Below are positions 34,382-37,368 of a DNA stretch of 64,000 bases, one piece after another. The first letter of the stretch is position 1. Each line of letters starts with the position of its first letter. The DNA comes from Pontibacter liquoris. GTDB lineage: Bacteria; Bacteroidota; Bacteroidia; Cytophagales; Hymenobacteraceae. Both the position numbers and the translations under genes were made by a program. Under the pieces are notes generated by a model. That model saw nothing but the letters and a program-made list of their open reading frames with translations, had not been told where the DNA came from and ran no database searches. The DNA lies in contig NZ_JALEBG010000001.1 in assembly GCF_022758235.1 (NCBI RefSeq), positions 1,178,001 to 1,242,000 on the forward strand. Reading direction: 5' to 3'.

Positions 34382-34713
34382 GTATAACAGCAGGTTTAAG
34401 GTGAGACGGTTTAACGGAACAGTGCCGCAGCTAAAGGCCACGGGAGCTAAAAGATAAAGTTATTTCTGCTGAAAATCGTAAGGTGCTGCTGATAAAAGTT
34501 TTAGATGGAGCAACGTGCCATTTCCCGGCCCATCTCTCTGGCTCATCCCGCATACTTGACGCAAGCGTCCACCTGTGCCGTGCGTAGCAAAATCGATTAC
34601 TGTATCCTGGCTATTTGTTAATGTACACGTTATTGCTGTTCCATTGCCACTTAAGTATAGGCATATGCGGACGCTTGCTTCATTTACGTTTTAGGAGCAC
34701 ATCTACTTCAGGC
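34382..34713. other. intergenic region between hydrolase and LLM gene
   Basis: No gene is seen. The hydrolase promoter should lie near 34400-34560 on the minus strand. Two AAGTAT-type copies occur (near 34552 and 34654). The region ends in the terminator of the LLM gene. Confidence 0.35.
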
Positions 34714-34747
34714 AAAAAAAGAACCCTGCGGCTTCAAGGCTGCAGGG
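34714..34747 (-). terminator. intrinsic terminator after the LLM monooxygenase gene
   Basis: CCCTGCGGC (34724-34732) pairs with GCTGCAGGG (34739-34747) with one G-T pair. On the minus strand a run of seven T (34720-34714) follows. It closes the peptide/ATP-grasp/LLM unit. Confidence 0.85.
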
Positions 34748-34788
34748 CTCAAGGTCAGTTTAGTTTAGGTTTATTGTTTGTTAGGTTC

Positions 34789-35826
34789 TTATGCTGTTTG
34801 TTTTTGTGGAGAGAAAGCCCTGATCACGGAGTCGGAGAAGCGCTCCATCTCCTCGAGTTGCGGACTGCACTGCAGCAGGAAGAAATCCACCCCCACTGCC
34901 TCGAAGGCGGCGATGCGGTCCTGGATCTGGGCAGGCGTGCCGGTCAGGCCGCTGCGCAGGCCGCGGTTGGATACCGAGTAATCCTGCAGCGACACCTGCT
35001 GCTCGAGCTGCGTGCCGGCCAGCCACTGCTGGTAGTTGCCATAGCCGGCAGCCGAGGCCTGCACGTTGGTAATGCGGTCGAGTTCTTTTTTCACTTCCGC
35101 CTCCGTGTTGCGCACAATGCTGTAGGCCGCTACCCCGAATTTCATCGGCGGCAGGCCCAGTATCTCGCGGCGGCGGCGCATGTCGGCAATGCGCTCCCCG
35201 ATCTTTTCAGGCGAATCGCCGTGCATCACGTAGCCGTCGCATTGCGTGCTGATCATGGTTTTAGCAGTTTCCGACTCGCCTCCGGCATAAATAAATGGCT
35301 TTTTGGCAGGCTTGGGCTGCAGCACGTTATCTTCCACCTTGTAGTAGTTGCCGCTGTAAGTCACGTGGTCGCGTTCCCACACGCTGGTCACCACGTCCAG
35401 CCACTCTTTGGTGCGGGCGTAGCGGTCGTCGTGCTGCTCAAACTGGATGCCATACTTGGTCGCCTCATCGCGCCACCAGCTCGATACCACATTCAGCGAC
35501 AGGCGGCCATTGCTGATCAGGTCGATGTTGGCGGCCTGCTTAGCCAGCTGCGCCGGGTTGTGGAACGTAGGGCGCACGGCCACCATGATCTCCAGCTGCT
35601 GGGTCACAGCGGCCAGCGCCGCTGCCGTAGACCAGGCATCGAGGGCCGGTGCTTCCTGCCCTTTGATATCATTTAAGTATAACTCTGCGATCAACGACAG
35701 GTGGTAGCCCCAGCTCTCGCTTTTTTGCGCCAGTTTTTTAACGTAATCCCAGGAGGTGTCCATTCCTTCGTCCGGAATGTTGCGGAGCCATCCTCCGAAA
35801 ACGGGTAACCAATAGCCGAATTCCAT
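34789..35826 (-). CDS. SsuD-like LLM-class FMN-dependent monooxygenase
   Basis: The 345-residue protein is a luciferase-like TIM-barrel flavoenzyme: MEFGYWLPVFGGWLR, then FHNPAQLAKQAANIDLISNG, RLSLNVVSSWWRDEATKYGI, HDDRYARTKEWLDVVTSVWE, YYKVEDNVLQPKPAKKPFIY and AGGESETAK. The NVVSSWW and DDRYARTKEW phrases are close to alkanesulfonate monooxygenase SsuD and its relatives, which use reduced FMN and O2 to cleave C-S bonds. The substrate here is unknown. The ATG lies 2 bp after the stop of the ATP-grasp gene, so the two are co-translated. No flavin reductase or sulfonate transporter is adjacent. Confidence 0.85.
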   Translation of the reverse strand: MEFGYWLPVFGGWLRNIPDEGMDTSWDYVKKLAQKSESWGYHLSLIAELYLNDIKGQEAPALDAWSTAAALAAVTQQLEIMVAVRPTFHNPAQLAKQAANIDLISNGRLSLNVVSSWWRDEATKYGIQFEQHDDRYARTKEWLDVVTSVWERDHVTYSGNYYKVEDNVLQPKPAKKPFIYAGGESETAKTMISTQCDGYVMHGDSPEKIGERIADMRRRREILGLPPMKFGVAAYSIVRNTEAEVKKELDRITNVQASAAGYGNYQQWLAGTQLEQQVSLQDYSVSNRGLRSGLTGTPAQIQDRIAAFEAVGVDFFLLQCSPQLEEMERFSDSVIRAFSPQKQTA

Positions 35827-35828
35827 GC

Positions 35829-36812
35829 TTATACCTCCTGTAGTTTAAGTTGCGCTTTCTTCTCCAGGAAATCTACCAGGCGGGCGTGTGGGTTAAAGCC
35901 GATCACGTTCACGGCATCGGCCACAAAATTAGACAGCGCGTTGATGTCGTAGTAGTAGATCCTACCATCGCGGTCGTCCACCATGTACTCAATGCCACCC
36001 ACGTCGATGCCGGCTTCCTGCACAATGCGTTCGATGTTGTCGATTACTTCCTGCGGCGGGGTATAGGCTTCCACGCGCATGCCATTCTTAGGCGCATCCA
36101 GGGCGCAGGCATTGCGGCTCAGTTCCTTGCCGTTGGTGGTCTGGCAAATGTCGGCCGGGCAGAGGTTGAAGCTCTCGCCGGAAGTATACACGTTGATGCC
36201 GTAGAGGTATTTGCCGCCCAAGGTTTCGATGCGGGTGATATGGCCGCCGCGGGCTACCACATACTCCTGCACCAGCGCCGTGTGGTCGATGCCCAGCTTC
36301 ACCTCGGCGGCAGCCACAGCTTGCGCGAGTTCCTCCACAGAATCATAGCGCACAATGCCGGCGCCGCTGCCCCCAATATTGGCTTTCACCACCACCGGGA
36401 AGCGCAGCCCTTCGGAGGCTTTCACCGCCTGCGAGGCATGGTTGATGATGCGCGCTTTTGGGTAAGGCAAGCCCAGTTTTTCGAGCAGCGTGATCTGCAG
36501 CGCTTTGGAGGTTTCGTACTGAAAGGCCTTGTAGCCGTTCACCACCGGCACACCGGTCGTTTCGAGGTAGGCCAGCAGGCTCAGCGTATAAAAGATACTG
36601 TTCTCGTTGTTGCGCAGGTAAGCCGAAGGGCTAGTGCGGTTAAAGAACAGGCTGTAAGGTACTTCCTTTTCGGCCGGATCATAGGTATGGGCGGCGGCAT
36701 TCAGGCGTTCGTAGCCAATGCCACGGGCGTCCAGTTCATTTAACAAGGGGCGGAACCAGTCCGGGTGCTCGTGAAAAATGGCAATGGGTTTATCGGTGGT
36801 GTACGTTGACAT
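35829..36812 (-). CDS. RimK-like ATP-grasp ligase
   Basis: The 327-residue protein has the ATP-grasp fold: FNRTSPSAYLRNNENSIFYT, ALQITLLEKLGLPYPKARII, LRFPVVVKANIGGSGAGIVR (nucleotide-binding Lys and Gly-rich loop), ALVQEYVVARGGHITRIETL and the metal-binding YYYDINALSNFVADA. Such enzymes join an amine to a carboxylate through an acyl phosphate, often on a peptide or protein. It is preceded, 218 bp upstream, by a 40-residue peptide ending in four cysteines and followed by the LLM enzyme, an unusual set. Its substrate could be that peptide, or a small molecule. No maturase other than the LLM protein is nearby. Confidence 0.82.
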   Translation of the reverse strand: MSTYTTDKPIAIFHEHPDWFRPLLNELDARGIGYERLNAAAHTYDPAEKEVPYSLFFNRTSPSAYLRNNENSIFYTLSLLAYLETTGVPVVNGYKAFQYETSKALQITLLEKLGLPYPKARIINHASQAVKASEGLRFPVVVKANIGGSGAGIVRYDSVEELAQAVAAAEVKLGIDHTALVQEYVVARGGHITRIETLGGKYLYGINVYTSGESFNLCPADICQTTNGKELSRNACALDAPKNGMRVEAYTPPQEVIDNIERIVQEAGIDVGGIEYMVDDRDGRIYYYDINALSNFVADAVNVIGFNPHARLVDFLEKKAQLKLQEV

Positions 36813-36923
36813 AAGTTCTGGTTTTTGAAGTTAGAAGTATAAAGCAGCGGATTATGCACCGCTACAGGCTTTGTTAAATTAAAGAAAGAAGTATGGAATA
36901 AAGGGTCAGAAAGCCCCGGAAAC

Positions 36924-37013
36924 GGCCTGAACAGGTACAAACAGGCCATGCCTTTCCCGCAAAGCTGCACACAGATAGGCTGGCAAGTGGGCGCGCCACA
37001 ATGCATCAGCCTA
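36924..37013 (-). promoter_or_regulatory. two hairpins in the leader between peptide and ATP-grasp gene
   Basis: Hairpin 1: TAGGCTG (36976-36982) pairs with CAGCCTA (37007-37013), with an inner stem GTGG/CCAC (36987-36990 and 36996-36999). Hairpin 2: GGCCTG (36924-36929) pairs with CAGGCC (36942-36947). Neither is followed by a clear U-tract. They could be attenuator structures or processing sites. Confidence 0.35.
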
Positions 37014-37030
37014 CCGCCAAAGCAGCAGGA

Positions 37031-37153
37031 CTAGCGACAACAACAGCAACCGTAGGCCGGCGCTACAGAAGTATAAACAGAGGTGTTTTCGGAGAAAATC
37101 CGGTTAAAAAGGCCCGCCAGTACGGCAGCAAAAGCGATAATAGTAGTTTGCAT
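37031..37153 (-). CDS. 40-residue peptide with C-terminal tetra-cysteine
   Basis: ATG 37153 to TAG 37031 encodes a 40-residue peptide. It opens MQTTIIAFAAVLAGLFNRIF, a hydrophobic, membrane- or leader-like segment, continues SENTSVYTSVAPAYG and ends CCCCR. It has its own upstream palindrome (37172-37186) and is read toward the ATP-grasp/LLM pair 218 bp away. Two readings fit: a precursor peptide modified by the ligase and flavoenzyme, or a leader peptide whose Cys codons sense charged tRNA-Cys to control a sulfur-related operon, as described for polycysteine leaders in mycobacteria. The gene is short, so chance cannot be excluded, but a tetra-Cys end just before a stop is rare. Confidence 0.5.
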   Translation of the reverse strand: MQTTIIAFAAVLAGLFNRIFSENTSVYTSVAPAYGCCCCR

Positions 37154-37171
37154 TATTAGTAATTTATATGC

Positions 37172-37186
37172 CCTAAATAATTTAGG
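37172..37186. promoter_or_regulatory. 15-bp palindrome upstream of the tetra-Cys peptide
   Basis: CCTAAATAATTTAGG has perfect 7-bp arms around one base. Its near edge is 18 bp upstream of the peptide start codon, where a repressor or activator site could control the peptide/ATP-grasp/LLM unit. Confidence 0.4.
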
Positions 37187-37368
37187 CAGGATGTAGCACC
37201 TGGTTATGCAACTGGTTGCTAGAAGTTCACAGAGCCTGTTCTCTCCCTTCTTCTTTATAAATCAAATACTTGTGAGGGTAATTGACTTGATGAATGCAAA
37301 ATTCGGAGCTGCGATTTACATTTCCAAATTTTTACCTAAAAATAATGTTGGTACACCATTTAAGTTTT

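Follow-up and report, generated by a model that had tools for sequence, protein, structure and literature searches.

The window analyzed here is a stretch of 64,000 nucleotides (nt) from Pontibacter liquoris (assembly GCF_022758235.1, contig NZ_JALEBG010000001.1, positions 1,178,001 to 1,242,000 of the forward strand). Its minus strand carries a short frame that ends in four cysteine (Cys) codons and that probably encodes a regulatory leader peptide nested behind an S-adenosylmethionine (SAM) riboswitch of the SAM-I type, an arrangement that would place the downstream genes under two-input control. The order on this strand is a SAM-I aptamer, 7 nt, the leader frame, 218 nt of untranslated sequence, a gene for an ATP-grasp protein, 2 bp, a gene for an LLM flavin monooxygenase and a terminator. 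With somewhat less assurance, we favor a broader interpretation in which such loci form a widespread RNA AND gate. The output of the riboswitch would be translation of an amino-acid-sensing leader whose codon run is tuned to the pathway, and a single transcript would sense SAM and then charged tRNA, in several families of Bacteroidia.

The aptamer (RF00162) occupies positions 37161..37263 of the window, on the minus strand like all features described below. It is full length (model positions 1–108) and has an AU-rich closing helix, P1. The cmscan score of 76 bits (gathering score 44.4, E = 2.4e-17) places the element in the SAM-I riboswitch family, from which SAM binding and an effect on expression are predicted. 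No RNA family other than this aptamer was detected between positions 34400 and 37600 at E ≤1. The sequence and its covariance model (CM) alignment identify the 5′ strand of P1 as GATTTATA (37256..37263). The 3′ strand, recognized from the sequence, is TATAAATT (37161..37168) and would double as the A-rich part of the translation initiation region of the leader. The leader frame (37031..37153, 40 codons plus stop) starts 7 nt past P1 and encodes MQTTIIAFAAVLAGLFNRIFSENTSVYTSVAPAYGCCCCR, ending AYGCCCCR. Its four Cys codons, TGC TGT TGT TGT (37037..37048), lie one codon ahead of the stop, and the untranslated gap extends from there to the ATP-grasp start (36813..37030). An earlier note on this stretch, made from the letters alone, had described the 40-codon Cys-tailed frame, the gene order, the 2-bp spacing and the terminator, and all of these were confirmed. 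It had also pointed to a 15-bp palindrome before the frame. The palindrome, CCTAAATTATTTAGG (37172..37186), is present, but its riboswitch context had been missed: the CM match and the sequence identify it as the P4 hairpin of the aptamer.

The 4.9-Mb genome contains four SAM riboswitches, three of which are directly followed by a Cys-tailed short frame. Apart from the study leader, one of these frames (MKKGIKPTQ...EAMCCCCC) precedes a gene for a metY-like pyridoxal phosphate enzyme of Cys/methionine (Met) metabolism and the other (MNKQNTTPV...AAFLCCCCC) precedes a gene for a SusC-like TonB receptor. The bodies of the three leaders appear unrelated to one another. The remaining riboswitch, at metH, has no Cys-tailed frame. 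A pattern scan of the same genome for Cys-tailed frames did not cover TAG stops and so missed the study leader. It returned 26 matches, 19 of which overlap other long frames; among the 7 left, L352, L363 and L364 represent two known leaders.

Searches with RF00162 gave a match in 50/50 genomes of the same genus, 112/148 of the order and 247/296 of the phylum. A total of 231 riboswitch loci were fetched. This set is not random, as it consists of the four loci of the genome itself, one riboswitch per genome taken from these searches and 140 loci picked by hand among the matches listed. Five loci could not be oriented at first and four were ambiguous. The main counts cover 226 loci, and five more were examined separately by search strand, together with L160, an ambiguous locus that was re-oriented. 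Under a strict rule (at least three Cys in a row, no more than 8 residues from the stop, within 700 nt), a Cys-tailed frame was present at 77/226 loci. In 76 of the 77 the frame starts at the aptamer, and the start codon lies 6–12 nt past it in 71/76 leaders, mostly at 7, 9 or 10 nt. This recurrence exceeds the chance controls. Frames with at least four Cys in a row near the stop were found in the 400 nt downstream at 63/226 loci in the sense direction and at 0/226 in the antisense direction; the counts in sense were 0/90 in the 400 nt upstream and 0/135 in the 300 nt upstream, and 1/223 had such a frame at 1000–1400 nt downstream. Frames with at least three Cys gave 77/226 downstream in sense, compared with 2/226 in antisense, 1/90 and 1/135 in the upstream regions and 3/223 at 1000–1400 nt downstream. 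The poly-Cys frame of the 77th locus (L106) lies 146 nt from the aptamer, behind a hairpin that resembles an intrinsic terminator. The layout of L106 (genome G454, another family) is serial, with the SAM aptamer, the terminator-like hairpin, a separate poly-Cys frame and a metY-cluster gene. At three further loci (L004, L145 and L147), the riboswitch is followed by two successive Cys-tailed short frames, and these by a gene for a TonB receptor or an antiporter.

The leader is associated with one class of P1. The loci fall into those with an AU-rich P1 (GATTTATA...TATAAATT or near variants) and a remainder that is mostly of the CTTATC...GATAAG type. Under a looser rule (a frame that starts 2–16 nt after the aptamer and has at least three Cys among its last 12 residues), a Cys tail was found at 82/105 loci with the AU-rich P1 and at 0/126 loci with other types. 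The first fraction combines 81/103 with L195, which has the tail, and L168, an additional AU-type locus with 1–2 Cys in the last 12 residues, which does not; the second combines 0/123 with L194, L256 and L259. Three AU-class loci of the same genus (L122, L146 and L159) have no leader, and at these a metZ-like gene itself starts at +10 (best match O-succinylhomoserine sulfhydrylase, at 514.5 bits below the cut-off of 522). A gene abutting the AU-type aptamer in this manner is what would be expected if P1 gates initiation.

The same association was seen when loci were selected by the aptamer only. A search of 395 genomes of the class with the 5′ portion of an AU-type aptamer matched 31 of them; a reversed control pattern gave zero matches in the same search. 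Of the 30 loci returned, 11 had been fetched before; among the 19 new ones, the Cys tail was present at 17. As for the two misses, L368 has a Cys tail when read from its second ATG and L393 has four Cys in its last 18 residues. The set reaches families outside the order of the study genome.

The position of the leader start offers a possible route for control by P1. Initiation in F. johnsoniae, from a phylum without Shine-Dalgarno sequences, is promoted by A at −12, −13, −6 and −3, according to the part of that study considered here (PMC6847099). Of the 76 leader starts, 66 are preceded by A at −14, 59 at −12, 52 at −13 and 53 at −6. In P1, the three positions that do not belong to the constant core form pairs at 89%, 92% and 75% of loci. 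With P1 closed by SAM, the A-rich segment ahead of the leader start would probably be hidden.

The genes that follow the leaders were grouped by BLAST clusters, in which only the representatives were named by family search. The metY cluster (n = 108) is mixed: 91 members have the HAG motif, which was taken as a sign of O-acetylhomoserine sulfhydrylase, and the other 17 include metZ- and metB-like enzymes. Leaders that satisfy the strict rule precede 47/108 members of this cluster over all families, or 45/91 of those with the HAG motif versus 2/17 of the remainder. They also precede the ATP-grasp gene (7/7), genes for NhaC-like antiporters (8/8), HPP membrane proteins (2/2) and proteins with nitrite/sulfite reductase domains (2/2), and cysH (3/5, with L141 running on into cysD and cysN). 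Leaders were also found before genes for TonB receptors (2/3, plus L206) and the amino-acid permease (2/3) and before the metX cluster (2/18). No strict-rule Cys leader was found before metH at any of 50 loci, nor was there a Cys frame at the aptamer in two further metH-like loci (L160 and L256). metH needs homocysteine and fixes no sulfur; it is served by SAM riboswitches that have another P1 type and no leader. The Cys input thus appears to sit mostly on genes for sulfur acquisition and sulfhydrylation. Solely from the presence of the leader, we infer that the antiporter, permease and HPP proteins may carry sulfur compounds.

Peptide bodies diverge among loci while the Cys tail persists. The tail is 3–8 residues long and abuts the stop codon in 56/76 leaders. 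Over the 76 leaders, the Cys tract is encoded by 236 TGT and 132 TGC codons, a mixture that indicates conservation of the amino acid and not of a simple DNA repeat. In the metY-cluster leaders of the same genus (e.g., L001, L038 and L057), an N-terminal MKKGI or MEKGT is conserved and the middle of the peptide is not. Met is concentrated in the 12 residues before the Cys run, where it makes up 59/312 residues in the same-genus metY-cluster leaders versus 2/687 elsewhere in the body. The corresponding values are 21/240 versus 2/447 for metY-cluster leaders of other families and 11/360 versus 3/511 for leaders of other genes; when the count was restricted to the 44 leaders of HAG-motif enzymes, they were 79/528 versus 4/1097. 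In the 36 nt before the Cys run of metY-cluster leaders, ATG occurs 80 times in frame and 7 and 3 times in the other frames. Of the evidence for selection on translation of the frame, which is likely, we regard this in-frame preference as the strongest. The codon content suggests that the run follows the pathway, with Cys for sulfur acquisition and Met plus Cys at metY-like genes.

A mechanism in three steps would account for this arrangement. In the first, suggested by the anatomy of the locus, the 3′ strand of P1 would act as an A-rich ribosome landing site, with the leader start mostly 7–10 nt further on. Binding of SAM would close P1 and block translation of the leader, and low SAM would open it. 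In the second, suggested by codon content, the ribosome would cross the little-conserved body and reach the terminal run of 3–8 Cys codons; if Cys-tRNA (or Met-tRNA, at metY-like genes) were scarce, it would stall there. In the third step, the weakest of the three, the stalled ribosome would stop the C-rich gap from shutting the gene off, most simply by blocking Rho-dependent termination. Expression would stay low if the leader were untranslated, or if it were read to its stop and vacated. tnaC is a precedent for leader-controlled Rho-dependent termination. The expected logic is that the genes would be ON only when both SAM and Cys are low, which amounts to a sulfur-starvation AND gate on sulfur-acquisition genes. 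Gaps between leader and gene were examined at 67 loci (median length 141 nt). The word TATACTT is shared by the gaps of many same-genus loci (e.g., L003, L047 and L129). C exceeds G in 67/67 whole gaps, including that of the study locus, and in 63/66 with the last 40 nt removed; comparison of 39 same-genus gaps with 5′-region controls gave p = 0.002. These compositions weakly suggest that Rho may be involved, and we rank Rho-dependent termination first and translational coupling second as the possible link between leader and gene.

A number of observations weigh against this scheme or limit the evidence for it. Among the 103 AU-class loci, 17 have short frames with fewer than three Cys in the last 12 residues: 6 lack Cys in this stretch and 11 have 1–2, in a few cases with a cluster of Cys close by. 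Another 2 loci have no start codon nearby. Only 33/76 leaders have A at −3, which is also a positive determinant of initiation. The Fisher p of 2.5e-41 for 81/103 versus 0/123 overstates independence, as the loci are related. Fifteen non-overlapping leader pairs gave a ratio of nonsynonymous to synonymous substitution rates (dN/dS) of 0.44, with 81, 87 and 130 differences at codon positions 1, 2 and 3, a result that is supportive and not decisive because the pairs were picked by protein identity, which biases dN downward. Ordinary 5′ regions also lean toward C > G (17/27 and 24/32), which weakens the sign of Rho. No general intrinsic terminator was found in the 67 gaps; the hairpin-plus-U score reaches −7 in 22/67, with a mean of −4.8 versus −3.5 for shuffles. 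The five locus groups compared have no conserved structure in common, and the covariation terms of each are near zero. Two metY subgroups of the same genus share hairpins (−33 and −30 kcal/mol), and three other groups fold weakly. Four of the five groups fold better than column-shuffled alignments (z −3.9 to −5.9), which is a weak control. Pairing of the gap with the Cys run was not detected (mean z −0.14), and neither gap nor body gave a general signal of pairing with this run. Short anti-Cys words occur in the gaps 42 times versus 20.7 expected, an excess of about twofold. Three of these results speak against a transcription attenuator of the trp/his type: the lack of a general terminator, the near-zero covariation and the lack of pairing between gap and Cys run.

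A less likely alternative is that the nested SAM riboswitch and Cys leader act on translation, the stalled ribosome unmasking the downstream start by an RNA rearrangement. Translation attenuation has been described for mycobacterial cys genes (Canestrari 2020, as cited in the part of PMC13236596 considered here). Compared with shuffles, the 67 gaps have a slightly greater folding stability (mean z −1.9). However, the gaps are long, and they have neither pairing conserved across groups nor complementarity to the Cys run.

An improbable alternative is that the leader answers to SAM only, the Cys run being a generic slow or pausing element or part of an arrest peptide that senses, for example, redox state, a metal or persulfide. 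The chemistry of Cys would permit this. The use of both TGT and TGC, the variation in the body and in tail length and the specificity of the Met codons for metY-like genes argue instead for codon reading by pathway and not for one arrest sequence. Still less probable is a functional Cys-rich microprotein, binding metal or sulfur, that has come under SAM control by chance. The very high Cys content of the C terminus fits such a protein; the absence of a conserved body, the strict position behind the aptamer and the occurrence of different bodies within one genome do not.

The two genes downstream of the study leader encode a RimK-like ATP-grasp protein of 327 residues (35829..36812) and an LLM flavin monooxygenase of the SfnG/SsuD group with 345 residues (34789..35826). 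The first meets the Pfam RimK domain cut-off (30.6 bits, cut-off 21) and falls below that of NCBIfam rimK_fam (TIGR00768; 65.9 versus 143.4). The second matches Pfam Bac_luciferase with 190 bits. Its score against the SfnG dimethylsulfone monooxygenase model (TIGR04021), 239.8, is under the equivalog cut-off of 382.95, and it was therefore assigned at the level of the LLM family. Its nearest relatives in the PDB are 3rao and 8vw6, then SfnG and SsuD enzymes; 8t0u is also among its matches. An intrinsic terminator closes the operon (34714..34750; hairpin of −19.4 kcal/mol followed by seven T). On the other side of the operon, what looks by eye to be a long inverted repeat separates the riboswitch from an amidohydrolase gene; its arms, GACAAAGGATAATTTGACAAAGGAC... 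and the complement, lie at about 37534–37503 and 37399–37367.

Records titled Bacteroidota, Planctomycetota, Gemmatimonadota, Acidobacteria and others contain relatives of the ATP-grasp protein. An LLM gene lies within the fetched stretch at 74 of 80 such loci (L262–L341), and the two-gene unit is kept across several phyla. Further leaders precede the pair in Rufibacter, Sabulibacter, Salegentibacter and Gillisia. Covariance models run on 20 of the 80 loci located an aptamer upstream of the ATP-grasp gene in L262, L263, L269, L271, L275 and L284; in L293 it lies elsewhere. The riboswitch/leader arrangement is absent at 68/80 relatives, five of the 80 having less than 600 nt upstream. The regulation of the pair suggests that it may release sulfur from an organosulfur compound.

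These data bear on the two readings offered in the earlier note, which took the peptide to be either a Cys-codon attenuator or a modified precursor and held that this would be refuted if homologous loci had no poly-Cys frame. The frame does recur. The Cys-codon leader is strongly supported by the persistent tail, the varied body, the mixed TGT and TGC codons and the many sulfur genes downstream. ATP-grasp ligases act on peptides in some pathways for ribosomally synthesized and post-translationally modified peptides, and the adjacency of the genes would suit a leader on which the ATP-grasp ligase and the LLM enzyme act, but we give this reading almost no credence: the same type of leader stands before metY-like, metX, cysH, sulfite-reductase-like and transporter genes, most ATP-grasp relatives lack the arrangement whereas nearly all keep the LLM gene, and the leader body is little conserved even where the ATP-grasp protein is 93% identical (L262).

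Riboswitches and amino-acid leader peptides have usually been treated as separate subjects. At dozens of the loci studied here, the two are apparently nested. The nesting of SAM riboswitch and Cys leader suggests a target for this class of SAM riboswitch in Bacteroidota, predicts a set of cysteine-responsive genes and provides a two-input logic that can be tested. It also gives a functional hint, sulfur acquisition, for the conserved and uncharacterised ATP-grasp/LLM pair, and the leaders point to short peptides that are easily overlooked. No report that joins a SAM riboswitch to a Cys leader was found in the open-licence literature, a scope that left out most subscription papers and all supplements.

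The comparisons that follow draw on parts of the papers cited. Like other SAM-I (S-box) riboswitches (RF00162), the element has a full aptamer above the gathering score and lies upstream of methionine and sulfur genes. It differs in that it would open onto the start of a leader, with the AU-rich P1 as landing site, and not onto a terminator or the gene's own start. The actinobacterial poly-Cys leaders of cys operons (PMC1262725) are likewise short frames upstream of sulfur genes, with a Cys run close to the stop and without an obvious terminator. For those of mycobacteria, tna-like Rho termination has been put forward in a suggestion its authors called weak (Seliverstov 2005; PMC1262725). The actinobacterial leaders belong to another phylum, and the relevant part of that paper describes no riboswitch and notes no Met codons. 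The mycobacterial poly-Cys leaders are reported to be leaderless (Canestrari 2020, cited in PMC13236596). At the study locus, a full aptamer upstream in the same orientation argues against a leaderless frame, with its AUG at the 5′ end of the transcript.

Other systems share single elements of the arrangement. In Rhodobacterales, uORFC-8-2 is an upstream open reading frame (uORF) before cysS in which tandem Cys codons serve as an attenuator (PMC8632094); it differs in having two Cys codons in a hairpin followed by a terminator, and no SAM aptamer is mentioned in the portion compared. In M. tuberculosis, a B12 riboswitch controls ppe2 by acting on a translated uORF ahead of this gene (PMC11260477), but it has another ligand and operates by termination-reinitiation coupling, and the sections compared describe no amino-acid codon run. 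The Xanthomonas SAM-I element that binds uncharged initiator tRNA (PMC7270179) also combines two inputs in one SAM-I element; there, the second input is direct binding of tRNA to the expression platform and not a translated leader. Leader-peptide attenuation in Flavobacterium psychrophilum (PMC9723704) concerns the same phylum, with short-peptide leaders proposed before amino-acid operons, and differs in that its text, the part compared here to the exclusion of the supplementary lists, names neither a Cys leader nor a link to a SAM riboswitch. Each half of the present arrangement, the SAM-I riboswitch and the Cys leader, is therefore already known, and what appears to be new is the nesting of one behind the other.

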